Assembly (NCBI GenBank): GCA_937858705.1
Contig: CALLZM010000014.1
Coordinates: 1-40,777 of the forward strand
Origin: an uncultured Candidatus Saccharibacteria bacterium
GTDB lineage: Bacteria; Patescibacteriota; Saccharimonadia; Saccharimonadales; Saccharimonadaceae
Direction: 5' to 3'
DNA: 40,777 nucleotides
Numbering within the stretch: the first letter of the stretch is position 1; every line of letters begins with the position of its first letter. The notes beneath the pieces were generated by a model. It was not told where the DNA came from, did not search any database, and saw only the letters and a list, made by a program, of their open reading frames with translations. The position numbers were made by a program, and so were the translations under genes. Shown in pieces: positions 1,721-40,280 of this stretch.

Positions 1721-4122
1721 GTTTTAATTATCATAGCTACCGAGCGCACAAGGCTCGCCTAGGGGTAGCGCTGGGCAGCTCTCGCAAATTGTTGTCATTA
1801 CTGTTTTGGGTGATGCTCGCGAGCGGTATAGTTGCTTTGGTGTTGGGCGAACGGTTCGGCTGGCTATTGCTCGGTTTGGCGACGCTGCCGTATATGCTGA
1901 AAGAATGGTATGATGGCGAGCTAAAACACGCACCGAACGGTAAAGGCACTTCGGCTGACGATCATATATCGGCCGATATATTAGGGCGGTTGCCGAAAAA
2001 TCCTTCGCCTCGTGATATCGCTCGAGCAGTCGCGCAAGTGTCTGGCGGCGTGTTTATGGGCGCACGATTTGGCTTGACTCCGGCTCTGATGGAGCAAATT
2101 ACTTCCGAAAATCCTGACGACTCGGCAGCTATATGGGAGGAAGCTGAGGTAATTCGCAGTATGACGGGCTCTGATCGCTACACCGGGAGTGTACTCTCGA
2201 CAGCGTTAATACGACAATTCCCTAACTATCAGCAGCTTATTGGACAGATTTATCTCGATGATGACGATCTCATTGCCGGCGTGGTGTGGCAAAAACATCT
2301 CCGGGAGCTCATCAATAACCATCGACGGCCAGTTCGTACGGGCGGTATCGCTCGAGATTGGTCATTCGGCTATATCCCGATGCTTGAGCGGTTCGGGCAC
2401 AATATCAGCGCTACCGTCATGAATTCGCTTTCAGCGGTAGACTTGGCTTCGCACACTGCCGTCATCGATCAATTGACCGATATCTTTGGCAATGCTGGTC
2501 GCCAAAACGCTGCCTTGGTAGGGCGAACTGGCTCTGGTAGGACGACGGTTATTCACGCATTTGCCAGGCGCTTGCTCGATGCGCAGTCGAAACTGCCAGA
2601 AAGCTTGAAATTTCGTCAGGTGTTTATCCTCGACGCTACTTCTCTTATTGCCGCCGCACCCGGTCGGGGCGAGCTGGAAGAGCTTATCATGCGAGTGTTG
2701 GGAGAAGCCTATAGCGCCAAAAACATCATCATTTGCCTCGATAACGCACAGCTCTTTTTCGAGGAAGGTGTCGGCTCGGTCGACCTGTCGAATACTTTGC
2801 AGCCTATTTTAGAAGCGGGTAATTTACGAGTGATATTGTCTATCGATGAGCAGCAATTTTTACAGATTGGTCAGCGAAATCCAGGTATTGTAAATGCGCT
2901 GAATCGTATCACCGTACAGCCGAGTAATAAAGAAGAGACTATGCGTGTTATGCAGGAGCAGCTTATTTCAAGTGAGTTTGCTCGAAAAGTCACCTATACC
3001 TACCAGGCTTTGAAGGAAATTTATCGTTTGAGCGAGCGCTATGTGCATGATATTGCTCAGCCAGGCAAAGCTATGAAACTATTGGAAGCGGCAGCGGGGT
3101 ATCATGAAAATGGACTAGTGACGATGAACTCCGTACAACAGGCTATAGAAAAAACACTGGATGTAAAGGTGAGCGTGGCGACTGATATTGCCGACCGTGA
3201 TCGTCTATTGAATCTTGAGCAACTCATTCACGAACGAATGATCAACCAAACAAGGGCGGTGCAAGTGGTCAGTGATGCACTTCGAAGGGCGCGCGCTGGC
3301 GTACGAAATGAAAATCGCCCCATTGGTACCTTCTTGTTTTTGGGCCCAACTGGTGTGGGTAAAACAGAACTGGCAAAAGCCTTGGCGGAGGTATATTTTG
3401 GCGGCGAGAATAAAATAGTGCGCCTTGACCTCAATGAATTTGTGCGGCCAGAAGATGTCAGTCGTTTGATCGCCGATGGCGCTACCGATCCGCATAGCTT
3501 GACTGCCCAGGTAATGAAGCAGCCGTTTAGTGTGGTATTGCTCGACGAGATAGAAAAGGCTGCGCCTGAGGTATTGGCGACGCTATTGCAGCTACTCGAT
3601 GAAGGAATTTTGCGCGATATCAAAAACCGTGAAGTGAGTTTTCGCGACGCCATCGTTATCGCTACCAGTAACGCCGGGGCTGATAGAGTGCGAGAATATA
3701 TCGAGCGAGGGTACGATATTCGCCAGTTTGAGGCGCAATTTGTCGATGAGCTCATCAGTTCAAATCAATTTCGGCCAGAATTTTTGAACCGTTTTGATGA
3801 GATATGCGTCTTTACGCCACTGTCTAAGCCAGACCTCTTGCAGGTGATTGACCTCATACTCATTGGTGTTAATAAAACGCTTGAACCACAAAAAATCAGT
3901 GTAGTGGTAGATGAAGCAGGCAAACAATTGCTGGTTGACGCTGGCTACGATCCGCGCCTTGGCGCACGACCAATGCGTCGAGTAGTACAAAAAGCAGTTG
4001 AAAATACTGTAGCCAAGCAGTTACTGGCAGGGAGCATCGAGCCGGGCTCGACAACCACTATAACCGTTGAGCAAATCAGTGAAGCTCTAGGTAGCGCAAG
4101 CGAAAAACTTGACAAAGCATAA
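1708..4122 (+). CDS. Membrane-anchored Clp/Hsp100-like AAA+ ATPase with degenerate first ATPase domain
   Basis: An 804-aa protein with ClpA/B/C architecture. Two hydrophobic segments (about residues 30-50 and 53-68) replace a free N-terminus and predict membrane anchoring. An unrecognised helical region of about 120 residues follows. The first AAA+ domain has a Walker A with Arg for Lys (GRTGSGRT, 272-279) and a Walker B with Asp-Asn (345-346) in place of Asp-Glu. The second domain is intact: GPTGVGKT at 546-553, LLDEIEK with Asp613/Glu614, sensor ATSNAG, and the D2 small-domain signature GYDPRLGARPMRR. I see no IGF/IGL ClpP-docking loop between sensor 1 and the RPEFLNRFDE motif, so a disaggregase or remodelling role seems likelier than proteolysis. 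The ATG at 1708 is preferred; the longer frame reads back through the preceding gene. Confidence 0.82.
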   Translation: MASIGFNYHSYRAHKARLGVALGSSRKLLSLLFWVMLASGIVALVLGERFGWLLLGLATLPYMLKEWYDGELKHAPNGKGTSADDHISADILGRLPKNPSPRDIARAVAQVSGGVFMGARFGLTPALMEQITSENPDDSAAIWEEAEVIRSMTGSDRYTGSVLSTALIRQFPNYQQLIGQIYLDDDDLIAGVVWQKHLRELINNHRRPVRTGGIARDWSFGYIPMLERFGHNISATVMNSLSAVDLASHTAVIDQLTDIFGNAGRQNAALVGRTGSGRTTVIHAFARRLLDAQSKLPESLKFRQVFILDATSLIAAAPGRGELEELIMRVLGEAYSAKNIIICLDNAQLFFEEGVGSVDLSNTLQPILEAGNLRVILSIDEQQFLQIGQRNPGIVNALNRITVQPSNKEETMRVMQEQLISSEFARKVTYTYQALKEIYRLSERYVHDIAQPGKAMKLLEAAAGYHENGLVTMNSVQQAIEKTLDVKVSVATDIADRDRLLNLEQLIHERMINQTRAVQVVSDALRRARAGVRNENRPIGTFLFLGPTGVGKTELAKALAEVYFGGENKIVRLDLNEFVRPEDVSRLIADGATDPHSLTAQVMKQPFSVVLLDEIEKAAPEVLATLLQLLDEGILRDIKNREVSFRDAIVIATSNAGADRVREYIERGYDIRQFEAQFVDELISSNQFRPEFLNRFDEICVFTPLSKPDLLQVIDLILIGVNKTLEPQKISVVVDEAGKQLLVDAGYDPRLGARPMRRVVQKAVENTVAKQLLAGSIEPGSTTTITVEQISEALGSASEKLDKA

Positions 4123-4191
4123 GCGTATATGCTATAGTAAAATATAGCCGAACACCACATCGGAAGTTTTTCAGTTACGCGAGTACGCGAC

Positions 4192-5955
4192 TTACTTGCC
4201 GCTTTGTGGGAACAAGAACTTCAAATAGTCTTTTACCATGCGTGCGCCAGAAATGATAGGTAAGTAGGCTATGAGCTGCTTGTGGACATTTTCAACGAGG
4301 AGGTGGTCATCCGCAAGGATAGCACCAGCGGCTCGCATATTGCTGTAGAGTGATTCTACCTCTTCGTGATAATTCTTGCCAACGACTTCAAGGCAGGCGA
4401 TTGGTTTGATGTCGGCCACGCCACCATCGCTAGTGCTGATGAGCATTTTGAGATTGGCGATATCTTTTTCCCATGAGGTACCACAGGCTTCAAGGCCAAT
4501 GATCGGTACATTTATGGCGGTATCGGCACCTATGGCCAAAGCACGGCCAAGCTCTTCATCGTAATCTTGTATGTAATGCACGCGGTTTCGTAGCTCTTCA
4601 TCTTGGTCGATCTGCCCAAGGATATTGCGCAAACGGTCGTACATGACAAAATCGCCTTGGTGTACCTTGCCCGCCAATATGTAGTGGGCATTGTGTTCTA
4701 CTAAAATTCGCTTCAGTTCTTCGGTATCTTCAAACGGCATGAATGGTCGTTTGTAGTCGGCGAAACGGCGTTTGAAGTCGAACAGAATCGCCTCTTCCGG
4801 TATGTGAACAGGGTTGCCGTATTGGTCCATGCGGCGGCCCAAGATGTCGTTCATGGTTTGGCGAGCAAGTTTTTTCAAGCTGCGGATTTCGTCGGCGGTG
4901 ATAGTGGCTATTTTTGCTTCATAATCTTCGGTTGGAAGGCCAAATTTATCGATGATATCTTTTTCCTGATAGAGTTTGAGGGTTTCTGGTAACACCCAAG
5001 TTTCCATATCGATACCATTGGTGACGGCATGGAATTTTACCTTATCGCCATTTTTATCACGGAAGTTAGCTACTTGGGCGTGAAGGCGACTTACGCCATT
5101 TTTGGCCTCAGTTAGCTCGATAGCGAGAATGTTTGGACGAATGAAATCACCATGGAATTGGTCGGATACCCAGCCACGAACAGCGCGGCTTTTGATGTTT
5201 GGCATAACATAACGGTCGAACTGCGAGCGAGAGAACTCGGCTTCGGCGGCTTGCACAAGCGTATGATTTGTGTACAGTGTGTGCTTACGAACATATACGA
5301 TGGCTTCGTAGAGGTTCATACCGTTCGAACAGAGCTCATCGAGGCGGGCAAGAGCAGCAAAAATGGTCGCTGTTTCGTTGAGCTGAATGACAGCTGGTTT
5401 GATACCGGCGACTTTTAGGGCTTTGTAGCCACCAAAGCCAAGAGCCACTTCTTGGTATAGGCGATGGTCACCACTGCCGAGCCCTTGGTATAACTCACCA
5501 AAGTTTGACTCGCCAATCGTGATAAACTGTGTCGAGCCAAGCTGTTTGCGGAAAATATCGAGTTCGGTGCCAAAGCCGTGATCGGTGGTGATGGTGACGG
5601 TGTCGATATACTCGAAGCCGTATTTTCGCGGCGATACAGGGATGGAATATTCTGACTGTGCGAGGCCATTGATGGTTTGGTGTAGCTCTGAGCGGTAGAA
5701 AGGCGTAACTACGACAAATGGAATGTCGAGCTGCTGAGCAACGCGGCGGGTATCGGCCGCCAAAACACCAAGGCCACCACCGCCTTTGATGCCGTTTTCT
5801 TTGTCGTAAATTTCCATTGTCCAATATACATATGGACGAGTATCCGACAACTGATGAGTGAGTGACTGGCGGTTGATCGCTTCATAAAAATCAGAAGCGT
5901 CCTCAATATCTTGCGGTTGATAATTTGTGTTGTTGCGATATATATTTTGATCCAT
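4192..5955 (-). CDS. glgP: Short-form alpha-glucan phosphorylase
   Basis: A 587-aa GT35 enzyme releasing glucose-1-phosphate from alpha-1,4-glucans using pyridoxal phosphate. Family motifs include GGGGLGVLAADT near residue 60, TLYTNHTLVQAAEAEFS, NGVSRLHAQV and VTNGID. The PLP segment starts EACGTS (about 489) and continues to NLKM with the likely Schiff-base Lys near 503, then TSDGG. It holds about five extra residues (WEKDIA) compared with the usual GTS-x-MK spacing. The length fits the short bacterial/archaeal branch rather than the roughly 800-aa form. The start is supported by an AAAAGGG stretch 4 nt upstream and by a TGC-TATACT promoter at 5993-5998, so unlike many neighbours this mRNA has a leader of about 30 nt. 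Confidence 0.88.
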   Translation of the reverse strand: MDQNIYRNNTNYQPQDIEDASDFYEAINRQSLTHQLSDTRPYVYWTMEIYDKENGIKGGGGLGVLAADTRRVAQQLDIPFVVVTPFYRSELHQTINGLAQSEYSIPVSPRKYGFEYIDTVTITTDHGFGTELDIFRKQLGSTQFITIGESNFGELYQGLGSGDHRLYQEVALGFGGYKALKVAGIKPAVIQLNETATIFAALARLDELCSNGMNLYEAIVYVRKHTLYTNHTLVQAAEAEFSRSQFDRYVMPNIKSRAVRGWVSDQFHGDFIRPNILAIELTEAKNGVSRLHAQVANFRDKNGDKVKFHAVTNGIDMETWVLPETLKLYQEKDIIDKFGLPTEDYEAKIATITADEIRSLKKLARQTMNDILGRRMDQYGNPVHIPEEAILFDFKRRFADYKRPFMPFEDTEELKRILVEHNAHYILAGKVHQGDFVMYDRLRNILGQIDQDEELRNRVHYIQDYDEELGRALAIGADTAINVPIIGLEACGTSWEKDIANLKMLISTSDGGVADIKPIACLEVVGKNYHEEVESLYSNMRAAGAILADDHLLVENVHKQLIAYLPIISGARMVKDYLKFLFPQSGK

Positions 5956-6074: not shown

Positions 6075-7115
6075 GTGAAAGAGTTTCAGAGACTTCCCAA
6101 GCTTCAACTGGGCGACCAAGTTGGTATCATCTCGCCATCTGCTGGACTGCCTGGTTTATTTCCGTGGGTGCAAGATTTGGGGCTGGAACGAATGCGCGAT
6201 GTTTTCGGCCTTACGCCCAAAGAATATCCGACGACACGCCAGATGGGCTCGTCGCTAGAAGACCGCGCAAGAGATGTCATGGCGGCATTTGCCGACTCGA
6301 AAAATAAAGCGGTGTTTGCTTCTATCGGCGGCTCCGATCAGATAAAGCTTATCAAATACCTCGACCCGCAAGTATTCATCGACAACTCGAAGCCATTTTT
6401 CGGCTTTAGCGACAACACGCATTTACACAATTTTCTCTGGAACTTGGGTATACCGTCGTATTATGGCGGTGGCGTGATGAATCAATTTGGTATGAACGGC
6501 AGCATGTTTGATATGACGGTCAATTCCATACGACATGCACTATTTGATGAGGGTGAGTTCGAGCTGGAAGTAGCGAGTGAGTATAACGACATAGGTTTGG
6601 GCTGGGACGATAGAGAGAATCTCAAAAAACAACGCTTTTTGGAGCCAAATGAAGGTCTGATATGGAATGGCGACAACGATGCGGAGGGTATTTTATGGGG
6701 CGGATGCGTCGAGAGCCTCATAGTGCAAGTCGCTACCGCACTGTATTTACCAAAAGATGAAGCGTTAGACGGCACAATTCTAGTGCTAGAAACCGCTGAA
6801 GATATACCAGAACATTGGATTATGAAATATCTGCTGACTGGTTTTGGTGAGCGAGGGTGGTTTGACAAATTTCAAGCTGTTTTGGTTGGTCGTCCTAAAG
6901 CCTGGGAGTTCAATAAGCAAAATACCACCGAATGGAAGGCTGCTTACAAAAAAGAGCAGCAACAAACAGTTATCGATACAGTTCGGCAATACAACAAGGA
7001 AATTCCAATCGTACAAAATCTTGATATCGGACATACTGATCCGCAGGTCGTATTGCCATTTGGGCATAAGGCTCGTGTGTTGGCGAGTGAACGCAAGGTG
7101 TGCTTGAATTACTGA
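6075..7115 (+). CDS. S66-family peptidase (LD-carboxypeptidase/MccF-like)
   Basis: A 346-aa serine peptidase of the LdcA/MccF family. Members cleave the L,D bond of muropeptide tetrapeptides or, in MccF, inactivate microcin C-type compounds. Visible features: GDQVGIISPSAG near residue 18, IGGSDQIKLIKYLD (nucleophile-elbow region, about 83-97), FFGFSDNTHLHNFLW, LETAEDIPEHW (the likely catalytic Glu), and GHTDPQVVLPFG near residue 320 with the catalytic His. The long middle segment and the His motif resemble the MccF-like branch more than classical LdcA. The start is GTG at 6075, chosen because it lies 7 nt after a TAAAAT box; the ATG at 6073 is out of frame. There is no signal peptide, so the protein acts in the cytoplasm, in muropeptide recycling or self-protection. 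Confidence 0.85.
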   Translation: MKEFQRLPKLQLGDQVGIISPSAGLPGLFPWVQDLGLERMRDVFGLTPKEYPTTRQMGSSLEDRARDVMAAFADSKNKAVFASIGGSDQIKLIKYLDPQVFIDNSKPFFGFSDNTHLHNFLWNLGIPSYYGGGVMNQFGMNGSMFDMTVNSIRHALFDEGEFELEVASEYNDIGLGWDDRENLKKQRFLEPNEGLIWNGDNDAEGILWGGCVESLIVQVATALYLPKDEALDGTILVLETAEDIPEHWIMKYLLTGFGERGWFDKFQAVLVGRPKAWEFNKQNTTEWKAAYKKEQQQTVIDTVRQYNKEIPIVQNLDIGHTDPQVVLPFGHKARVLASERKVCLNY

Positions 7116-12113: not shown

Positions 12114-13640
12114 CTACCATTCGGTGATGGTAACGATATCGGCGCCAATTTCGTTCAGGCGGTTGGCAAAATCTTCATAACCACGATTGATATTATAAAC
12201 ATTGCGAAGGATAGATTTGCCAGGAGCCGCTAGCATAGCAAGAAGTATGACTACTGAAGGCCGCAGAGCTTCTGGCGCAACAAGATCCGCTGGCTTCCAT
12301 TTGGTTGGGCCGCCAATGTATACGCGGTGCGGGTCGATCATTTCCACTCTTGCGCCCAGCTTGGTCAGCTCGGTAAAGTAAATAGCTCTATTTTCATAAC
12401 TCCAATCGTGCACCAATGTCCTGCCAGTTGCTACGGTGGCAATAAGCCCCAGAAATGGCAGGTTATCCATATTTACACCAGGAAACGGCATGCAGTGGAG
12501 CTTATCTTTTGGTGCGACAAGTTGTGATTCTTCAAGGGTGATATCAACCAGGCGAGTACGACCATTATCGGCGACATATTCGGGCGATTGCTTATATTGC
12601 AAGTTCATTTGACTTAGTATTGCCAACTCTAGCTCGGTAAATTCGATGGGTACTCGTGTGATAGTAATGGGCGACTGAGTGACGATGCCGGCAGCAATGA
12701 GACTCATCGCCTCTATAGGATCTTCACTCGGTGAATAGTCGATATCTTTATTGATGTGTTTTTTACCACGAATTTTTAGAACCGTTGTGCCGATACCTTC
12801 AATCCTAACTCCTAATTTTTCTAAGAAAAAACACAAATCTTGTACCATATAGTTGGGGCTAGCGTTACGAATAGTCACCTCGCCGTCGTATAACGCAGCA
12901 GCCATAATGACATTTTCGGTAACGGTGTCACCCCTTTCAGTAAGAAGAATCGTCTTTTCAATTTTTTGAGGGGTAACAGTGGCGCTGTAGTGATGGGTTT
13001 TTGCCTCGACTGCCAGGCCAAATGGAGCCAACCCCGCTAGGTGCGGCTCGACAGTTCTGGTGCCAATACTGCACCCACCAGCAAAAGGCAGTTCGAAGCT
13101 GGAGTATTGGTGTAAGAGTGGTCCGAGAAACATCAGTACAGTACGAGTTCGTTTTGCTGCTGCTTCGTCCATATTTTCGAGTTTTAACACTTTTGGCGGG
13201 GTAATCTCTAGGTCGTTGCCAGGAAGCCACTTCATTTTTACGCCAATACTTTCGAGCACCTCGATGATACGATTTACTTCTTCAATGCGCGCAACTTTCC
13301 GTAGAGTAGTCTTGCCTTTGTTGAGCAAGCTGGCGCATAGTAAGGCGACAGCAGCATTTTTACTGGTTTTCACGCGTATATTACCGCTTAGCTTACGACC
13401 ACCGTTTATAACAAAGTTGGTTTTGCCAGAGTTGTTGAGGGTAATTATATCACTAGACAGCACTTCGCCAATTCGTGCGACCATATCGAGGCTGATATTT
13501 TGCTTGCCCTTCTCGATACGGTTGATGGCTGATTGACTGGTGCCAATGGCAATTGCCAACTCTGTTTGGGTCATGTGCTTGCTGGTGCGAATTTGCTGAA
13601 TCAGTGAACCGATTTTCTCGAGATATGTTGGCTGCTTCAT
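12114..13640 (-). CDS. murA: UDP-GlcNAc 1-carboxyvinyltransferase MurA with N-terminal XRE DNA-binding domain
   Basis: A 508-aa fusion. Residues about 8-65 form an XRE/Cro helix-turn-helix (MTQTELAIAIGTSQSAINRIEKGK). From about residue 75 a complete MurA follows, catalysing the first committed peptidoglycan step by transferring enolpyruvate to UDP-GlcNAc. Catalytic features are kept: a Lys-Asn pair (TSKNAA, about 93-94), the nucleophile loop AGGCSIGTRTVEPH with Cys190 (equivalent to E. coli Cys115, so fosfomycin-sensitive type), FPGVNMDNLPF with the general-base Asp, and NRGYEDF with the conserved Arg. The usual MurA is about 420 aa; the extra length is the HTH. Start: ATG 7 nt after TATATT. 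Its promoter contains a perfect inverted repeat, consistent with autoregulation. Confidence 0.93.
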   Translation of the reverse strand: MKQPTYLEKIGSLIQQIRTSKHMTQTELAIAIGTSQSAINRIEKGKQNISLDMVARIGEVLSSDIITLNNSGKTNFVINGGRKLSGNIRVKTSKNAAVALLCASLLNKGKTTLRKVARIEEVNRIIEVLESIGVKMKWLPGNDLEITPPKVLKLENMDEAAAKRTRTVLMFLGPLLHQYSSFELPFAGGCSIGTRTVEPHLAGLAPFGLAVEAKTHHYSATVTPQKIEKTILLTERGDTVTENVIMAAALYDGEVTIRNASPNYMVQDLCFFLEKLGVRIEGIGTTVLKIRGKKHINKDIDYSPSEDPIEAMSLIAAGIVTQSPITITRVPIEFTELELAILSQMNLQYKQSPEYVADNGRTRLVDITLEESQLVAPKDKLHCMPFPGVNMDNLPFLGLIATVATGRTLVHDWSYENRAIYFTELTKLGARVEMIDPHRVYIGGPTKWKPADLVAPEALRPSVVILLAMLAAPGKSILRNVYNINRGYEDFANRLNEIGADIVTITEW

Positions 13641-13647
13641 ACTTTAC

Positions 13648-13676
13648 AATATATCACAGATGATATATTTTTTCAA
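13648..13676 (-). promoter_or_regulatory. murA promoter with palindromic operator
   Basis: -35 TTGAAA (13671-13676), 17-nt spacer and -10 TATATT (13648-13653), then 7 nt to the ATG. A perfect inverted repeat (ATATATCA/TGATATAT, 4-nt centre; 13649-13668) covers the -10 and most of the spacer, where a bound repressor would exclude RNA polymerase. The XRE domain of MurA itself is the obvious candidate ligand. Confidence 0.75.
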
Positions 13677-13692
13677 GTCTACTGCATAGTGC

Positions 13693-13698
13693 TACAAT
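13693..13698 (+). promoter_or_regulatory. Extended -10 box of glyA
   Basis: TGC-TACAAT, 28 nt before the start; the short leader carries a strong SD (AAGGAGG, 13712-13718), unlike the leaderless neighbours. Confidence 0.6.
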
Positions 13699-13726
13699 AG
13701 AATAGAGCAACAAGGAGGTAAAAACT

Positions 13727-15007
13727 ATGCAGGACGATCCAATTTTTGGGTTCATTACAGATGAAGAGCAGCGTGAGCGAGATGGCTTAGAGCTGATACC
13801 AAGTGAAAATTATGTGAGCAGGGGAGTGCTAACGGCCTTAGGCAGTGTATTTACCAACAAATACTCCGAAGGCTATCCAGGCAAGCGATATTACGGTGGC
13901 CAACAATACACTGACCAAGTAGAACAGCTAGCAATTGATAGAGCAAAGAAGTTGTTTGGAGCCGATCACGCCAATGTGCAACCTCATAGTGGTGCACCTG
14001 CCAATGAAGCAGTATATAGCGCATGGCTCGAGCCAGGCGATACGGTGCTTGCTATGGATTTGAGCCACGGTGGGCACTTAACCCATGGAGCGCCGGTTAC
14101 CAGGAGTGCTCAGCTATACAACTTTGTGCGTTACAAGATGAAAAATATTGCTACTGGTGAGATAGATTACGACGAACTGCGAAAACTGGCATTGAAGCAC
14201 AAGCCAAAGATTGTTTTGGCTGGCTTTAGCGGCTATCCTCGCGAACTTGACTATGCGAAATTTGCCGAAATAGGCAATGAAGTAGGGGCGCTACTTATGG
14301 CAGATATGGCGCATGTAGCAGGGCTTATTGCTGGTGGTGTAGCAAAAAACCCGTTTGACTATGGTTTTCATGTTATTACTACCACGACGCACAAGACACT
14401 CAGGGGCCCTAGGGGCGGCATGATTTTGAGTAAAGGTATAGTAAGTAATCCGCTGAAGAAGCCAGAGAAAACCTTAGAAAATATTCCAACCCTTATAGAC
14501 CGGGCGGTGTTTCCTGGTATGCAAGGTGGTCCGCATATGCATAGTATTGCTGCTAAAGCAGTTGCTTTTGGCGAAGCATTGCAGCCAGAGTTTAAGAAGT
14601 ATGCTCAGCAGGTGGTGAAAAATGCCAGTGTTCTCGCAGATGAGCTCAAGAAGCGCGGGTTTGTTCTCGTAACTGGCGGTACGAGTAACCATCTTATTCT
14701 CGTGAATGTGCAAGAAAGCTTTGGCATAGATGGTAAGGCAGCTGAAGAAGCACTCGATGCGATAGGCTTGACGCTGAATAAGAATGCCATTCCGGATGAC
14801 CCCAATCCACCATTTCGTCCAAGTGGTATTCGCCTTGGCACTCCGGCTCTCACTACAAGGGGGCTAGCGGAGGAGCATATGTCGATGATTGCTGAGTGGA
14901 TGCTGAATGCTATCGAGGCTCGTGATAATACCGAAGTGCTTGCTGCTATTCACGCAGAAGTTACTCGTTTCGCACGGCAGTTTCCATTGCCAAGTGATCG
15001 CGCATAG
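13727..15007 (+). CDS. glyA: Serine hydroxymethyltransferase
   Basis: A 426-aa PLP enzyme of fold type I that interconverts serine and glycine and supplies one-carbon units to tetrahydrofolate. The PLP-lysine motif TTTTHKTLRGPRGG is intact near residue 225. Other family landmarks are NYVSRGVLTALGSVFTNKYSEG, YYGGQQYTDQVE and ADMAHVAGLIAGG. The length is standard. The start is set by an ideal SD (AAGGAGG) 8 nt upstream. A strong hairpin terminator follows. Convergent pilin genes lie beyond it. Confidence 0.97.
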   Translation: MQDDPIFGFITDEEQRERDGLELIPSENYVSRGVLTALGSVFTNKYSEGYPGKRYYGGQQYTDQVEQLAIDRAKKLFGADHANVQPHSGAPANEAVYSAWLEPGDTVLAMDLSHGGHLTHGAPVTRSAQLYNFVRYKMKNIATGEIDYDELRKLALKHKPKIVLAGFSGYPRELDYAKFAEIGNEVGALLMADMAHVAGLIAGGVAKNPFDYGFHVITTTTHKTLRGPRGGMILSKGIVSNPLKKPEKTLENIPTLIDRAVFPGMQGGPHMHSIAAKAVAFGEALQPEFKKYAQQVVKNASVLADELKKRGFVLVTGGTSNHLILVNVQESFGIDGKAAEEALDAIGLTLNKNAIPDDPNPPFRPSGIRLGTPALTTRGLAEEHMSMIAEWMLNAIEARDNTEVLAAIHAEVTRFARQFPLPSDRA

Positions 15008-15069: not shown

Positions 15070-15531
15070 TTAGCAACCTGTACCGAGAGTGGTATTGTCT
15101 GATTCTCCACCAGCAACCCAGCTAATACGAGCACCAGTGCCACTATTACATTGTGTGTATTGCACGGCGTTTTGATCTACGGCAGTAGTAGTTCGGATAC
15201 TGTTAGGATTGTCGATTTTTGCCTCTTGTGGCCCAAGTGCTGGGGTGCCGTTAGCGGTGCAACCCGCAGTACCGACGCCACTTCCTGATCCAGTAGCGTT
15301 TGTATGATTTAAGGCAAAATTACAGTAGGTTGGGTAGCCTGTCTGTACGGTGTTCCACGCTTCTGCTTTTTTAGCAATCTGTCCTGTGAGCGATTTGGCG
15401 GCACTTATTTTGCCTCGGTTTTGTATACCGTTATACGCCACAATCGAAATGGTCGCAAGAATCGCAATCACGACGATGACGATCAGAAGCTCAACGATGG
15501 TGAAACCGCGAGATTTGATATTGTTTGACAT
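15070..15531 (-). CDS. Type IV major-pilin-like prepilin (copy A)
   Basis: A 153-aa prepilin. The leader MSNNIKSRG is followed by FTIVELLIVIVVIAILATI, a class III cleavage site (G|FTxxE) and the pilin N-terminal helix. The globular part is rich in G, T and N and has several Cys, the last at the C-terminus, suitable for disulfides. The start lies downstream of a promoter at 15576-15604 and a G-rich SD-like stretch. The first 23 codons and the upstream leader are identical at nucleotide level to copy B (98 nt, 15464-15561), then the globular parts diverge, suggesting a recent duplication or conversion with a variable surface domain. Confidence 0.9.
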   Translation of the reverse strand: MSNNIKSRGFTIVELLIVIVVIAILATISIVAYNGIQNRGKISAAKSLTGQIAKKAEAWNTVQTGYPTYCNFALNHTNATGSGSGVGTAGCTANGTPALGPQEAKIDNPNSIRTTTAVDQNAVQYTQCNSGTGARISWVAGGESDNTTLGTGC

Positions 15532-15575
15532 ATTAATTTGTGCCCCCTGCTTTATTAAATAATGGTTATGTTTTT

Positions 15576-15604
15576 ATGATAGCACTGAATGGGAGGAGGT
15601 GCAA
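15576..15604 (-). promoter_or_regulatory. Promoter of pilin copy A
   Basis: -35 TTGCAC (15599-15604), 17-nt spacer, extended -10 TGC-TATCAT (15576-15581). The spacer reads GGGAGGAGG on the plus strand, an interrupted version of the G tract in copy B. Confidence 0.65.
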
Positions 15605-15626
15605 GAGGGGAGCACCACGAGAAATG

Positions 15627-15654
15627 AAATGAGCGGCCTTACGGCTGCTCATTT
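15627..15654 (-). terminator. Terminator of pilin copy B
   Basis: A 12-bp stem (AAATGAGC extended by GGCC, one mismatch) with a 4-nt loop, 23 nt after the copy B stop codon. Confidence 0.6.
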
Positions 15655-15677
15655 ATGCTGTTGTTTGACGCCGATCT

Positions 15678-16154
15678 TTAAGAAGTTGCAGTACAGCCCG
15701 TCCCTGCCGTGGTTGTGGCTGTGGCTGCTCCAAGCGTTTTTAGTACCGCAACTGGGGTAGATGCTGCGAAGTCCCAGTGCCAAATACAAGCACCACCAGT
15801 TCTCTGTCGATAGACGATTGATTCGCCATTATTGTAGGTTGCTGCCGCACCAACTCCACCTGTGCCGGTACCAGATACATATGCTTTCACTGCTGCAGTG
15901 TTATCGAGCTTTGCTTCAGGCACATCGGCATGAGTAAAGCCAGCTGCATCTACTGGATAAGAGCTCATAACAGTGTTGTAGGCTTCGGCTTTCTTTGCAA
16001 TTTGGCCAGAGAGTGAAGCTCCCGACGATGTCTTGGCCCTATTCTGGATACCGTTATACGCCACTATCGAGATAGTTGCCAAAATGGCAATCACGACGAT
16101 GACGATCAGAAGCTCAACGATGGTGAAACCGCGAGATTTGATATTGTTTGACAT
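15678..16154 (-). CDS. Type IV major-pilin-like prepilin (copy B)
   Basis: A 158-aa prepilin with the same leader and N-terminal helix as copy A (MSNNIKSRG|FTIVELLIV). The globular domain differs, with AKLDNTAAVKAYVSGTG, then YRQRTGGACIWHWDF and a C-terminal GTGC. The related YNNGESIVYRQR and YKSGKAVVYRL elements link it to the 16247 pilin. It has its own terminator and promoter. The promoter spacer contains an uninterrupted run of nine G, a possible phase switch. Likely a pilus fibre subunit; which paralogue is the major one cannot be told from sequence. Confidence 0.9.
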   Translation of the reverse strand: MSNNIKSRGFTIVELLIVIVVIAILATISIVAYNGIQNRAKTSSGASLSGQIAKKAEAYNTVMSSYPVDAAGFTHADVPEAKLDNTAAVKAYVSGTGTGGVGAAATYNNGESIVYRQRTGGACIWHWDFAASTPVAVLKTLGAATATTTAGTGCTATS

Positions 16155-16198
16155 ATTAATTTGTGCCCCCTGCTTTATTAAATAGTTGTTATGTTTTT

Positions 16199-16227
16199 AT
16201 GATAGCACTGAATGGGGGGGGGTGCAA
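16199..16227 (-). promoter_or_regulatory. Promoter of pilin copy B with poly-G spacer
   Basis: -35 TTGCAC (16222-16227), spacer of exactly 17 nt, extended -10 TGC-TATCAT (16199-16204). The spacer includes nine consecutive G (16214-16222, the last overlapping the -35). Slippage would change the -35/-10 spacing. Confidence 0.65.
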
Positions 16228-16246
16228 GAGGTCCATGTAGCTTTAG

Positions 16247-16699
16247 TTAACAGCCACCACCGAATGAGACACCGATAGGGTTTGCCGCAGTATTTTTCGT
16301 ATAGTCCCAGTAGTAAGTCATCCCGCCATTGCTGCATAGGCGGTACACAACTGCCTTGCCACTCTTGTAAGTATTTTGGTTGCTCGCCCCATTGGTACCA
16401 CTACCGTTTACCCACGATATGAAGGCAGAAGTATCGGTAAGCTTGGCTTCAGCAACAGTTGTGGTTTGCAGGTTTGTAAGTGTTGGCCAGGTAGAATAGA
16501 CGGAGTACCATCCTTTTGCTTTGAGGGCTCCCTGTGAAGCAAGCGTTTCTCCCGATGCTGTCATATTGTTATTCTTGGCAGAATTGTAACTTGTTACTAC
16601 GAGGGCGGTGATGATGGCAACGACGGCGATAACAATCACTAGCTCAACAACAGTGAAGCCGGTGGATGCGTTTTGTCGATGACGAAGTAAACTTGACAT
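16247..16699 (-). CDS. Type IV prepilin-like protein
   Basis: A 150-aa prepilin. The 14-residue leader ends in ASTG, followed by FTVVELVIVIAVVAIITALVV. The globular region resembles copy B (VAEAKLTDTSAFISWVNGSG, then YKSGKAVVYRLCSNGG, C-terminal GGGC), with a probable disulfide pair. It starts 5 nt after the stop of the large minor pilin, so it is the last gene of a four-gene operon running from 19668 to 16247. Confidence 0.88.
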   Translation of the reverse strand: MSSLLRHRQNASTGFTVVELVIVIAVVAIITALVVTSYNSAKNNNMTASGETLASQGALKAKGWYSVYSTWPTLTNLQTTTVAEAKLTDTSAFISWVNGSGTNGASNQNTYKSGKAVVYRLCSNGGMTYYWDYTKNTAANPIGVSFGGGC

Positions 16700-19707: not shown

Positions 19708-20727
19708 TTAAATCTCGAGTGGCTCTTGCTCAATGCCAATGCGAAACATATCGCGAACTGCCTGAATGATTTCTTGGCGAGCAGCTGCAAGGTCGGCATA
19801 GCTGGTAGCCGATTCGTTGATAAGTACCAGAGCGTTTTTATCGTGAATGCGCATACCGTGTAGTAGTTTCCCCTTTAGGCCAACTTGTTCGATAAGCCAC
19901 CCGGTAGGTACTTTGTGCTGGTTGTTTGGCATATCGTATGCTGGCATATCGGGAAATTCTTTCATGATATCTTGATAGAGCCAATCATCGATAATAGCAT
20001 TTTTGAAGAACGAGCCTGTATTTGGCCGTTCCTGCGGATCGGGGAGCTTATCGGCACGAATTGCTACGACGGCATCGCGAATAATTTGCGGTGAGTAGAG
20101 AGATACATGGTGCTCTTCAAAATAGTTTTCGATAGCAGTGTAAAATGGCGGTTCAGGGGGATTTTTTGAAAGGCGAATAGTCACGGCAACAATAGCATAT
20201 TGATGTGCAGCCGAACCTCTAAATATACTGTGACGGTACGAAAAACCGCAATCGTCGTTCGAAAGAGTTACAAATTGCTGTGATGGTATGTGGTAGGCAT
20301 CGACGGCCTCGATAGCTTCCGATACCTCTTGGCCGTAGGCACCAATATTTTGCACTGGCGCTGCGCCAACTGTACCAGGAATTGCCGATAGCGCCTCAAT
20401 ACCACTGAGCCGCAGCTCAACCGTTTTTCGTACTGTTTCATCCCAATTCTCCCCTCCGCCAATCTTGATAGCGGTGTAGCTAGGAGTATCTTCTATGACT
20501 TGCCAGCCCATGATGCGATTGCGAATAACTAAACCGTTAAACCCCTCATCTCGAGCAATAGTATTGCTACCGCCACCGAGGATAAAGATAGGAAGTTGTT
20601 GTCCGCTAGCTCGTTCACATAACTCCATCATGTCTTCGGGCGAATGAGCTTCAGCCATAAACCGTGCCTTACCTCCAAGACGCATAGTGGTATAGGTTTG
20701 AAGCGAGATGCCAGTATGAATTTCCAT
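19708..20727 (-). CDS. murB: UDP-N-acetylenolpyruvoylglucosamine reductase
   Basis: A 339-aa FAD-dependent reductase completing UDP-MurNAc synthesis after MurA. Visible motifs: FILGGGSN (FAD diphosphate), SAIPGTVGAAPVQNIGAYGQE, CGFSYRHSIFR with the Tyr/Arg pair of type I MurB, and RPNTGSFFKN with the proton-donor Ser. The length and the GFSYR segment fit the E. coli-like type I branch. The ATG at 20727 is preferred over the longer frame at 20772 because a TGG-TATTAT box lies 8 nt upstream and the extra residues have no counterpart in MurB. It is divergent from the phosphoribosyltransferase gene. Confidence 0.93.
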   Translation of the reverse strand: MEIHTGISLQTYTTMRLGGKARFMAEAHSPEDMMELCERASGQQLPIFILGGGSNTIARDEGFNGLVIRNRIMGWQVIEDTPSYTAIKIGGGENWDETVRKTVELRLSGIEALSAIPGTVGAAPVQNIGAYGQEVSEAIEAVDAYHIPSQQFVTLSNDDCGFSYRHSIFRGSAAHQYAIVAVTIRLSKNPPEPPFYTAIENYFEEHHVSLYSPQIIRDAVVAIRADKLPDPQERPNTGSFFKNAIIDDWLYQDIMKEFPDMPAYDMPNNQHKVPTGWLIEQVGLKGKLLHGMRIHDKNALVLINESATSYADLAAARQEIIQAVRDMFRIGIEQEPLEI

Positions 20728-20735
20728 ATATGGTA

Positions 20736-20741
20736 ATAATA
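20736..20741 (-). promoter_or_regulatory. Extended -10 box of murB
   Basis: TGG-TATTAT, 8 nt before the ATG. Confidence 0.55.
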
Positions 20742-20779
20742 CCACATGCGGCATACTTCTATTTATAGACACTGTTCTA

Positions 20780-30475: not shown

Positions 30476-30817
30476 ATGCAAATAAATGATTATACAAAAA
30501 CAGCACTATCTACTTTGGGTGATGAGCATGCGTACGGTGAGGTAACACCAAAACTTATGGCGCAAGTATTGGGGCTTGTTGGGGAAAGTGGCGAAGTAGC
30601 CGAGAAGTTTAAAAAGATATTGCGAGATAAGCAAGGAAAACTTTCTGAGGAAGAGAAAAAAGAGCTCGTGAAGGAGCTAGGCGATATATTGTGGTATATC
30701 AATGCTGTGGCTCACCTGCTGGGTTCAAATCTTGAAGAGGTGGCTAAGGCAAATAACGAAAAGTTGGCGAGTCGTAAAAACCGTGGTGTTCTGAGCGGCA
30801 GCGGAGATAACCGCTAG
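30476..30817 (+). CDS. MazG-like nucleotide pyrophosphohydrolase
   Basis: A 113-aa single MazG domain. The Mg-binding pattern is visible: LGLVGESGEVAEKFKK (E-x-x-E) and later KELGDILWYINAVAHLLG (E-x-x-D), ending in the NEKLASRKNRG tail common to this group. Such enzymes hydrolyse NTPs or dNTPs to monophosphates for pool cleaning. Leaderless start. Its stop overlaps the murC stop on the other strand in a shared CTAG. Confidence 0.88.
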   Translation: MQINDYTKTALSTLGDEHAYGEVTPKLMAQVLGLVGESGEVAEKFKKILRDKQGKLSEEEKKELVKELGDILWYINAVAHLLGSNLEEVAKANNEKLASRKNRGVLSGSGDNR

Positions 30818-32070
30818 TCGGTCAATTGTTGGCGAGCCCAGCTATCAATAGTGCCAGCACCCATGAGAAGGACAAGCGCTCCATTTTGGCGCAGTGTGGT
30901 GATGTTTTGCCACAGCTCATCATTCAGTTCAGCAAAGTGCACGGCTTGGCGATTTACTAGATGGGCAGAAAGCTCTGATGGCGTGAGAATCGGGAGATTT
31001 GGATCTTCCCGAGTGAGATAAGTAGGGAGCCAGTATATCGTATCTGCCGATAGCATACAATCAGTATATTGGTCTCGTATTTCATGTTGGCGAATATTTT
31101 GATGAGGCTGATAGACCAACGCCACTTGCTGGGAAATCTCTTTTGCCATTTGTAGCGTGGCGGCAATTTCTGCGGGGTGATGACCGTAGTCGCTATAGAG
31201 GTTGTCTGCAAGCTTTTCGAACCGACGGTCAGTGCCGGGAAACTGGTTGATGATTTGAAGATTTTTGACAGATTCTCCGAGCTGTAATTGTTCTAGGGCG
31301 GCTAGTACCAGCGTGGCGTTTTGGCGATTGTGTAAGCCAGCTAATTGTAAATCATTTACAATAGTATTTATCTCTGTAAAATGAGCATTTTGGCGTGGAC
31401 TAGCCAGTGTTGCGATATCTTTTTGCCAAGCAATAGTCTGGTGTGATTGATGGGTGAACTGCTGGAAGGCCGTCAAGTACTCAGCCTCCGTAGGATAAGT
31501 GTCCGGATGATCGTAGTCGATGGCCGTAATGAGGCTAATGTATGGATGAAAATGTAAGAAATTTTTATCAAATTCGTCGCATTCGTATATAAAATACTGG
31601 CTATCGGGCGAAAACATACCACTTGATCCAAAACTAAGCGTAGTGCCAACGAGGTAGCTTATGGGGAGGCCTAATTGCTGTATTACCCATATCATCATGC
31701 CAGTCGTAGTAGTTTTACCATGCGTACCAGCGATAGCGATAAGCTTTTGTCCACTTTCTTTGATGATGTGTGCGATGAGTCCGTCTCGTTTCGAGATCGT
31801 AATGCCGAGCTGGCTTGCCATTTGCAGTTCTGGATGGTCTAGCGGTAGAGCAGCGGTGTAGACAAACCAGTCGATCGGTGCCCGTGCATGCTCCATCTCA
31901 AGCTGATCACCACTTTGGTCGAAATAGATTGATATGCCACGGGCCTCTAGTCGCTTAGTGACGAGACTTGGCGATACATCAGAGCCATAAACTTCATGAC
32001 CGGCATCTTGTGCAGCTTGTGCGAGTGGTCCGATAGCCACACCGCCTATACCAGAGAAATATATCTTCAT
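30814..32070 (-). CDS. murC: UDP-N-acetylmuramate--L-alanine ligase (MurC/Mpl type)
   Basis: A 418-aa Mur ligase. The Rossmann start is MKIYFSGIGGVAIGPLA, the P-loop is IAGTHGKTTTTG (about 109-120), the central ECDEFDKNFLHFHP matches the MurC/Mpl DE-x-D block, and YGHHPAEI near 290 is a MurC/Mpl hallmark. It adds L-Ala to UDP-MurNAc (MurC). The Mpl alternative, recycling of tripeptide, cannot be fully excluded, but no second murC is visible. The ATG at 32070 follows a TATAAT box by 6 nt; an upstream in-frame ATG at 32097 precedes that promoter. Confidence 0.88.
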   Translation of the reverse strand: MKIYFSGIGGVAIGPLAQAAQDAGHEVYGSDVSPSLVTKRLEARGISIYFDQSGDQLEMEHARAPIDWFVYTAALPLDHPELQMASQLGITISKRDGLIAHIIKESGQKLIAIAGTHGKTTTTGMMIWVIQQLGLPISYLVGTTLSFGSSGMFSPDSQYFIYECDEFDKNFLHFHPYISLITAIDYDHPDTYPTEAEYLTAFQQFTHQSHQTIAWQKDIATLASPRQNAHFTEINTIVNDLQLAGLHNRQNATLVLAALEQLQLGESVKNLQIINQFPGTDRRFEKLADNLYSDYGHHPAEIAATLQMAKEISQQVALVYQPHQNIRQHEIRDQYTDCMLSADTIYWLPTYLTREDPNLPILTPSELSAHLVNRQAVHFAELNDELWQNITTLRQNGALVLLMGAGTIDSWARQQLTD

Positions 32071-32076
32071 ATTTCC

Positions 32077-32082
32077 ATTATA
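32077..32082 (-). promoter_or_regulatory. -10 box of murC
   Basis: TATAAT, 6 nt before the ATG. Confidence 0.6.
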
Positions 32083-32166
32083 TACGATGACTCTCAATCT
32101 AGTAGAGGTTTAGAATATAGCAATAATTTGCTACACTATATCTACAAGGAGCATGGTGGGAAGATT

Positions 32167-34626: not shown

Positions 34627-36262
<1,636 letters not shown>

Positions 36263-38856: not shown

Positions 38857-39525
38857 ATGACTAGACAAAAAGCGGATAACGATGACTTAGCAGAAATCTC
38901 GGAGGTGTTGATAGATAAAGCATCAAAGGGCTTCCTCGATGCCTTTCTGGGTGAAAATGCAGCTGATTTTATAGAGTCGGTCCCAGCTGGTAAATTAACG
39001 TTAGCTATCGGTAAGCTCTTTGTTTCTGCGAAAGACCACCATAGGACCAAGATGCTTCGAGCATTCCTGAGTGGTATGCAGAGTGGGGGCAAATCATTTG
39101 ATGAGTTCAAAGAACTAGATGAGAATATGAAAAATGATTTACGTGGACTCGTGCTCGCACAATTAGATCTGCAGACGGATGAACGACAAGCAGAAGCAGT
39201 GGGTCTTATCGTAGATGCATACCTAGCTAAGAAAGTGGATTGGCTGATTTTTATCGGCATTGCTTCCGAGATAAAGAATACAAACCCACTGCTATATTAT
39301 TTCTCCGTCGATAGTTTGATGATTGACAAGATGCACACAAACTTCGGTAAACCTGTAATCAAGGGTAATGTAAAGCTGTTGCCAGCGGTTTTTTACAGTA
39401 CTTCCGCAACGGAAGGCAGTCACGGCTGGAGTGCAGTACCAGGGACAGTAGATCACCCTACGGCAATGGGAGAGGCATTCTTTAAGTATGTTTATGAACC
39501 AATGTCTGAAAAGTATCAGATATGA
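38857..39525 (+). CDS. Unrecognised protein, first gene of a two-gene element operon
   Basis: A 222-aa soluble protein. The first 130 residues are helical (KLTLAIGKLFVSAKDHHRTK, then QLDLQTDERQAEAVGLIVDA), the last 60 more strand-like, ending HPTAMGEAFFKYVYEPM, which resembles a winged-helix end. The layout recalls prophage-borne helical proteins with a C-terminal LG element, but I cannot name a family. The ATG at 38857 lies 6 nt after TATGAT; the upstream frame crosses that box. It is coupled to the next gene by ATGA. Confidence 0.55.
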   Translation: MTRQKADNDDLAEISEVLIDKASKGFLDAFLGENAADFIESVPAGKLTLAIGKLFVSAKDHHRTKMLRAFLSGMQSGGKSFDEFKELDENMKNDLRGLVLAQLDLQTDERQAEAVGLIVDAYLAKKVDWLIFIGIASEIKNTNPLLYYFSVDSLMIDKMHTNFGKPVIKGNVKLLPAVFYSTSATEGSHGWSAVPGTVDHPTAMGEAFFKYVYEPMSEKYQI

Positions 39526-40280
39526 TTGACCAGGAACGATTACATACAACTATCTTTGCAAAGCAGACGACAGAAGATAGTAAAAGTATGGCTCTAAGGT
39601 TGCAGGCGGCACAAAAAGCGGGTGAGCAATTAAAGTCCAGCGAACGAGAGGAGTATATCCACCAGGTGGCAGACTCTTTCCTGGAGATACAAGATGCTGT
39701 TGATTGCCTAGATATGGCAGAGGTGTTTTTAAAAAGCTACTCCGTATCGAAATCTTGGAAGGATCGTTATGATCAACACCACTACTTTCGATATCACTAT
39801 GAGTCTTGGGTATTAAATGCAATTAAAGTTTATGAGAGGATACTCATTCTCGTTAATAGTGTTTACTGGCTAGAAATACCCCACAAAGAAATTACATTTT
39901 TAACAGTTTCACAGCACCCGAAGCTGCAGAATACAAAGACACTACTGTTGCTAAATAAAGTACACGGTGCGTTGAGTCAATTGCAGGCTCTCAAGAACAC
40001 TGTTTTCCATCGTTATGCGTATACAGATGATGATCTGCGAACGATCAAGATATTTAGTATGCTGGCTAGGCACGGTAAGGATAAGGAACGAGTACAATTT
40101 GCCAATATAGCAAAAGTACAAATGAGATCGATTTACTTACCAGAAAAGCGTAAAGAAATAGAGAGTAACAATAAACAGATACTTAAGATCGTAGACTCGA
40201 TCTTCAACGCACTTGAACTACCTTACATCGAGCGTAGAGACGCCCTTGATAGTACCTTGCAGCTAAAACAAAAAACTTAG
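39522..40280 (+). CDS. Unrecognised helical protein, possible HEPN-like fold
   Basis: A 252-aa protein, almost entirely helical. RYHYESWVLNAIKVYERILILVN and LNKVHGALSQLQALKNTVFHRYAY recall the layout of HEPN (Cthe2314-like) proteins, where the second motif is R-x4-6-H; here a Lys or nothing stands in for the Arg, so RNase activity is doubtful. It follows the 38857 gene with an ATGA overlap; together they may be a defence or toxin-antitoxin-type pair carried by the element (speculative). Confidence 0.5.
   Translation: MIDQERLHTTIFAKQTTEDSKSMALRLQAAQKAGEQLKSSEREEYIHQVADSFLEIQDAVDCLDMAEVFLKSYSVSKSWKDRYDQHHYFRYHYESWVLNAIKVYERILILVNSVYWLEIPHKEITFLTVSQHPKLQNTKTLLLLNKVHGALSQLQALKNTVFHRYAYTDDDLRTIKIFSMLARHGKDKERVQFANIAKVQMRSIYLPEKRKEIESNNKQILKIVDSIFNALELPYIERRDALDSTLQLKQKT

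Follow-up and report, generated by a model that had tools for sequence, protein, structure and literature searches.

The window, the whole stretch of 40,777 nucleotides analysed here, contains a murA gene whose product combines a MurA enzyme with an XRE-type HTH domain (XRE-MurA). The gene lies divergent to glyA, and a perfect inverted repeat in the space between them overlaps the murA promoter (Table 1).

Table 1. Features of the murA–glyA region of the window (window positions; forward strand +, reverse strand −).
Feature	Position	Strand	Basis
XRE-MurA fusion gene, 508 aa	12114..13640	−	Single ORF with Pfam and NCBIfam matches
MurA domain, residues 75–505	12126..13418	−	Profile match, catalytic residues, Foldseek
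XRE / HTH_3 domain, residues 14–61	13458..13601	−	Pfam HTH_3, 44.9 bits (cut-off 23)
Predicted recognition helix SQSAINRIEK, residues 34–43	13512..13541	−	Alignment and model
murA start codon, 7 nt past the −10	13638..13640	−	
Perfect inverted repeat, 9-bp arms, 4-bp spacer; proposed XRE-MurA operator	13648..13669	.	
murA −10 TATATT, preceded by TG (extended −10)	13648..13653	−	
murA −35 TTGAAA	13671..13676	−	
Likely glyA promoter TTTTCA-17-TACAAT, TG before the −10	13670..13698	+	
glyA Shine-Dalgarno AAGGAGG	13712..13718	+	By eye
glyA, serine hydroxymethyltransferase; divergent neighbour, possible second target	13727..15007	+	

HTH_3 and EPSP_synthase (Pfam PF00275; residues 79–495, 151 bits, above the cut-off) match in the same open frame, which bears out the fusion of an XRE domain to MurA claimed in a preliminary description of this DNA. 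The NCBIfam model NF006873 identifies the protein as MurA (317.6 bits, cut-off 297); with the murA profile TIGR01072 it scores 296.5, under the cut-off of 392.7. Residues K93, N94, C189, R194, D391, R417, R459 and R485 are unchanged across 34 fusion sequences in an alignment that includes solved MurA, and we take them to match K22, N23, C115, R120, D305, R331, R371 and R397 of E. coli MurA. The AlphaFold model (mean pLDDT 88.6, pTM 0.81) has two confident domains connected by a low-confidence linker (residues 64–70), and in Foldseek it aligns best with crystal structures of MurA (TM by target about 0.91). A profile search of the genome found this protein as the sole EPSP_synthase-family match, together with MurB and seven Mur-ligase-like matches. 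Since there is no second EPSP-family match and these other Mur proteins are present, XRE-MurA is, judged from sequence, very probably the functional MurA of its genome.

The HTH helices of the model (residues 4–19, 24–31, 35–42 and 50–59) follow the helix order of XRE domains. In and after the recognition helix, S34, Q35, S36, A37, R40, E42, G44, Q46 and N47 are invariant in the 34 fusions. By sequence, the closest natural relatives of known structure are C.AhdI, C.BclI, CylR2 and HipB(Lp). The C proteins of restriction systems act as XRE dimers on their own promoter, which they activate and repress via two sites. C.AhdI and C.BclI are the nearest solved relatives but lack an enzyme domain; assignment of XRE-MurA as the C protein of a restriction-modification system was rejected because its HTH is fused to MurA, and a scan of 20 other proteins of the window found no restriction-modification genes.

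The palindrome has the sequence AATATATCA-CAGA-TGATATATT and covers the murA −10 plus most of the spacer; in the reading of the murA strand the −10 falls within the right arm. The promoter TTGAAA-17-TATATT given in the preliminary description holds on the reverse strand, as does the perfect palindrome placed there over the −10 and spacer, except that the arms are 9 bp, not 8 bp. No Shine-Dalgarno sequence was seen between the −10 and the ATG. The start codon lies at the expected transcript start, from which we infer that the murA transcript is probably leaderless or nearly so. Most relatives likewise have the murA start codon at this position, suggesting a conserved leaderless or near-leaderless mRNA. 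Because the palindrome is upstream of the expected transcription start it would act as DNA and not as RNA, and an RNA hairpin was ruled out on the same ground. The palindrome is not significant on its own: 8-bp inverted repeats are common in the window (24 overlapping matches, compared with an average of 4.6 in simulated windows). The exact palindrome with up to three mismatches occurs once (0.31 expected in shuffles). As repeats as such are common, its weight comes from conservation in relatives.

Upstream regions of murA were read in 148 genomes (109 from the family, 21 from the rest of the order and 18 from beyond the order), and the best match to TATAYC-N6-GRTATA within 150 bp upstream was scored (maximum 12). 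Two loci, L155 (replaced by L293) and L174 (the same gene as L005), were excluded before counting, and L125, which has SQPA in the helix, was counted as having an intact HTH, giving 132 intact loci and 16 with no HTH or a decayed one. A palindrome scoring at least 11 lies just upstream of murA in 105 of the 132 intact loci, compared with 0.6% of shuffled upstream regions, and in none of the 16 others, where the maximum is 9; the loci are related by the tree and not independent, so that a Fisher p for the association of site and HTH overstates it. Twelve further intact loci carry a respaced form, TATKCA-N5-TGATATA, which was defined only after the data had been seen. By eye, ten of the remaining 15 have a repeat with at least one change, L158 has a repeat with a 5-bp spacer, and the site is missing despite the HTH in L161, L163, L164 and L167. 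Within the family, an XRE-MurA match was found in 114 of 121 genomes, most matches extending through the HTH, and the site is present in 49 of 55 HTH-bearing genera. The arms are kept at XRE-MurA through the whole order and beyond, so that the proposed circuit withstands the refutation by non-conservation that the preliminary description had set for it. In relatives the distance from the site to the start codon is mostly 8–13 nt. Some loci (L261, L276 and L277) keep the palindrome despite a longer leader, the site in L276 being further upstream, which indicates that it tracks the promoter rather than the start codon. At the Y/R position the arms do not covary beyond expectation (three double changes among 125 sites).

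Exact two-arm sites are also rare across the genomes. The 910-kb genome contains a single match to the two-arm pattern. Half-sites alone are common, with 34 TGATATAAT in genome G000 against one two-arm site. TATATCR-N4-TGATATA was found in 74 of 121 family genomes, its backward control almost never. Among the two-arm sites listed for these 121 genomes, 57 of 87 lie 9–65 bp upstream of an XRE-MurA match; of the 30 listed elsewhere, 21 (on 20 stretches) were examined: 15 fall within ORFs of 80 aa or more, and by eye these 21 revealed no shared second target. The rarity of two-arm sites, their concentration at murA and the placing of most of the others examined inside ORFs fit a regulator with nearly a single target. 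A scan of viral DNA for the palindrome matched 63 stretches; on one viral contig (L035) four copies of the pattern are closely spaced at 677–848.

A tree was built from 93 MurA domains, excluding L167 and L171 for their short length; in it a long branch separates the XRE-MurA subfamily from the other sampled Patescibacteria MurAs. Canonical MurA has the same fold and catalytic residues, but no HTH. The earliest branches of the subfamily have neither HTH nor palindrome. Both are also missing in genus g54, which is nested in the family (support 100/92 with g59 and g10), and in the f30/f72 group, where the HTH is decayed in some copies and gone in others, the palindrome is missing too. Most simply, these sequences suggest a single gain of the HTH, before f37/f30 split from the order, and its renewed absence in g54 and f30/f72. 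The g54 murA now closely follows an upstream gene (pilin-like by eye), and because murA has moved behind another gene the loss of the site may be just part of the loss of the promoter. In L280 and L286 (f30) a decaying HTH is still joined to MurA, a snapshot of loss. Genus g10 keeps the HTH, yet three of its four members lack the site (L161, L163 and L164); its HTH is perhaps a changed or idle regulator. All four g10 loci (L161–L164) have RN for QN after the helix, and some have longer N-termini. Loci with the RN change include three g10 members and L158, where the site is missing, but also L136, L140 and L162, which still score at least 11. A helix-to-site code was rejected, since helix changes do not map cleanly onto changes in the site. 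Two opposed XRE-MurA copies near a contig end (G109:C2:3-1040 and 2766-4271) are either a duplication or an assembly artefact.

At 65 of 71 loci glyA, which the preliminary description did not mention, adjoins murA; the two genes are divergent in nearly all of these (in L232 glyA lies downstream). Among order-level loci glyA adjoins murA in 19 of 21. In the window the glyA −35 abuts the palindrome; in relatives whose glyA −10 is 9–12 bp from the palindrome, the glyA −35 must lie inside it. Joint control of murA and glyA is plausible from this arrangement. Since L233 keeps the palindrome and no glyA was found there, murA looks like the main target.

We propose that XRE-MurA is both a working MurA and the repressor of its own gene, to which we assign a probability of about 0.83. 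The conservation of the site with an intact HTH, its absence where there is no HTH and the invariance of the recognition helix argue for this. Two XRE domains, presumably as a dimer, would bind TATAYC(A)-N4-(T)GRTATA; the bound protein would cover the extended −10 and spacer of a promoter that drives a leaderless or nearly leaderless mRNA, and would shut out RNA polymerase. More enzyme would then mean less murA transcription. In many relatives the same site overlaps the divergent glyA −35, and both genes may be repressed together. The interpretation in the preliminary description is partly supported: its autorepression circuit is well supported by comparison, the arms being conserved with the HTH and absent where it is absent or decayed.

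On a different account, the palindrome would be a two-way promoter made of two extended −10 elements placed back to back and read by RNA polymerase only, and the HTH would have another binding partner or none. The half-site TGATATA does double as a good extended −10, which makes this a serious alternative; a weak + strand promoter is predicted over that half-site, and murA and glyA are divergent. However, the final T of a −10 is found in the left arm at only 34 of 105 sites, versus 73 of 105 for the murA-side arm, and at 50 of 105 loci, against 2.3% of shuffles, the glyA strand carries a separate extended −10 farther to the left. The free position of TGN in these further-left elements is A in 14, C in 14, G in 13 and T in 9, whereas the palindrome arms have purine only. 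A two-way promoter also fits poorly with the absence of the palindrome wherever the HTH is missing, with its retention in L233, and with the left half-site being better conserved (81–100%, mostly >95%) than the murA −35 (50–68% at TTG). We consider it improbable, and disfavoured in that it accounts for the data less well than autorepression. That the palindrome is the operator of another XRE regulator, with the HTH on MurA in some other role, appears very improbable. Other XRE-like proteins do occur in these genomes as weak matches, but where MurA has lost its HTH, in a group nested in the tree, the site is gone too; away from murA it is uncommon, and the 21 such copies examined by eye revealed no shared second target. 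The abundance of 8-bp repeats in the window could suggest an AT-rich promoter that merely looks palindromic; yet the site recurs in different families and even outside the order, its flanks varying while a 4-bp spacer is favoured, which leaves this a negligible chance, and the counts at intact loci, in shuffles and at loci without an intact HTH refute it in practice.

Autorepression by XRE-MurA might in addition respond to substrate, gating by UDP-GlcNAc, PEP or UDP-MurNAc being conceivable. MurA closes upon substrate binding, and the preliminary description suggested that its substrate state could be sensed by the enzyme. UDP-GlcNAc or PEP would close MurA and free the HTH from DNA, so that murA would be induced as precursor accumulates. 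PutA offers an analogy, being gated by its substrate according to one account (PMC8249747), but the low-confidence linker of the model suggests that the two domains of XRE-MurA are independent. We regard substrate gating as possible but somewhat doubtful.

XRE-MurA resembles the trigger enzymes: an enzyme and a DNA-binding domain are joined in one protein, and a conserved operator-like site is tied to the HTH (105/132 versus 0/16 loci). NadR has an XRE-type HTH ahead of an enzyme, but enzyme and targets differ from those of XRE-MurA; the DNA-binding domain of PutA is an RHH. Both are E. coli trigger enzymes in the same account, which describes PutA as binding nowhere but in the spacer that separates its gene from a divergent neighbour, where it represses transcription (PMC8249747). 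As an enzyme with its own DNA-binding domain and a site in a divergent spacer, PutA is the nearest working model; it differs in serving proline catabolism and in its membrane switching, whereas XRE-MurA has an XRE domain and stands at the entry to peptidoglycan synthesis. BirA represses the bio genes and is rarely autoregulated, and homologues lacking the DNA-binding domain have no regulon (PMC5343134). It is likewise an anabolic enzyme with an N-terminal DNA-binding domain, and the loss of sites where the domain is gone is an evolutionary parallel; BirA targets the bio genes, whereas the main site of XRE-MurA is at its own gene. A search of titles and abstract openings, with thin coverage of subscription papers and preprints, found no paper on an HTH-MurA fusion, a weak negative.

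MurA, the target of the antibiotic fosfomycin, is essential, and the controls known for it act, to our knowledge, at the protein level. In XRE-MurA, regulation of the entry to cell-wall synthesis seems to have been built into the enzyme by an order of host-dependent bacteria. Such a circuit of one protein and one site is directly testable in vitro, and a genetic system is now available for Saccharibacteria (PMC10633639).

Elsewhere on the contig, further cell-wall genes encode a MurT-like ligase (17–1315), an LD-carboxypeptidase (6075–7115), MurB (19708–20772) and a Mur ligase (30814–32097). Three adjacent ORFs at 15070–16699 (−) are pilin-like by eye, and two of them are nearly identical in their N-terminal 40 residues, which suggests a recent duplication. 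A serine recombinase (34661–36262, −) and a HEPN-domain protein (39522–40280, +) perhaps belong to a mobile element.
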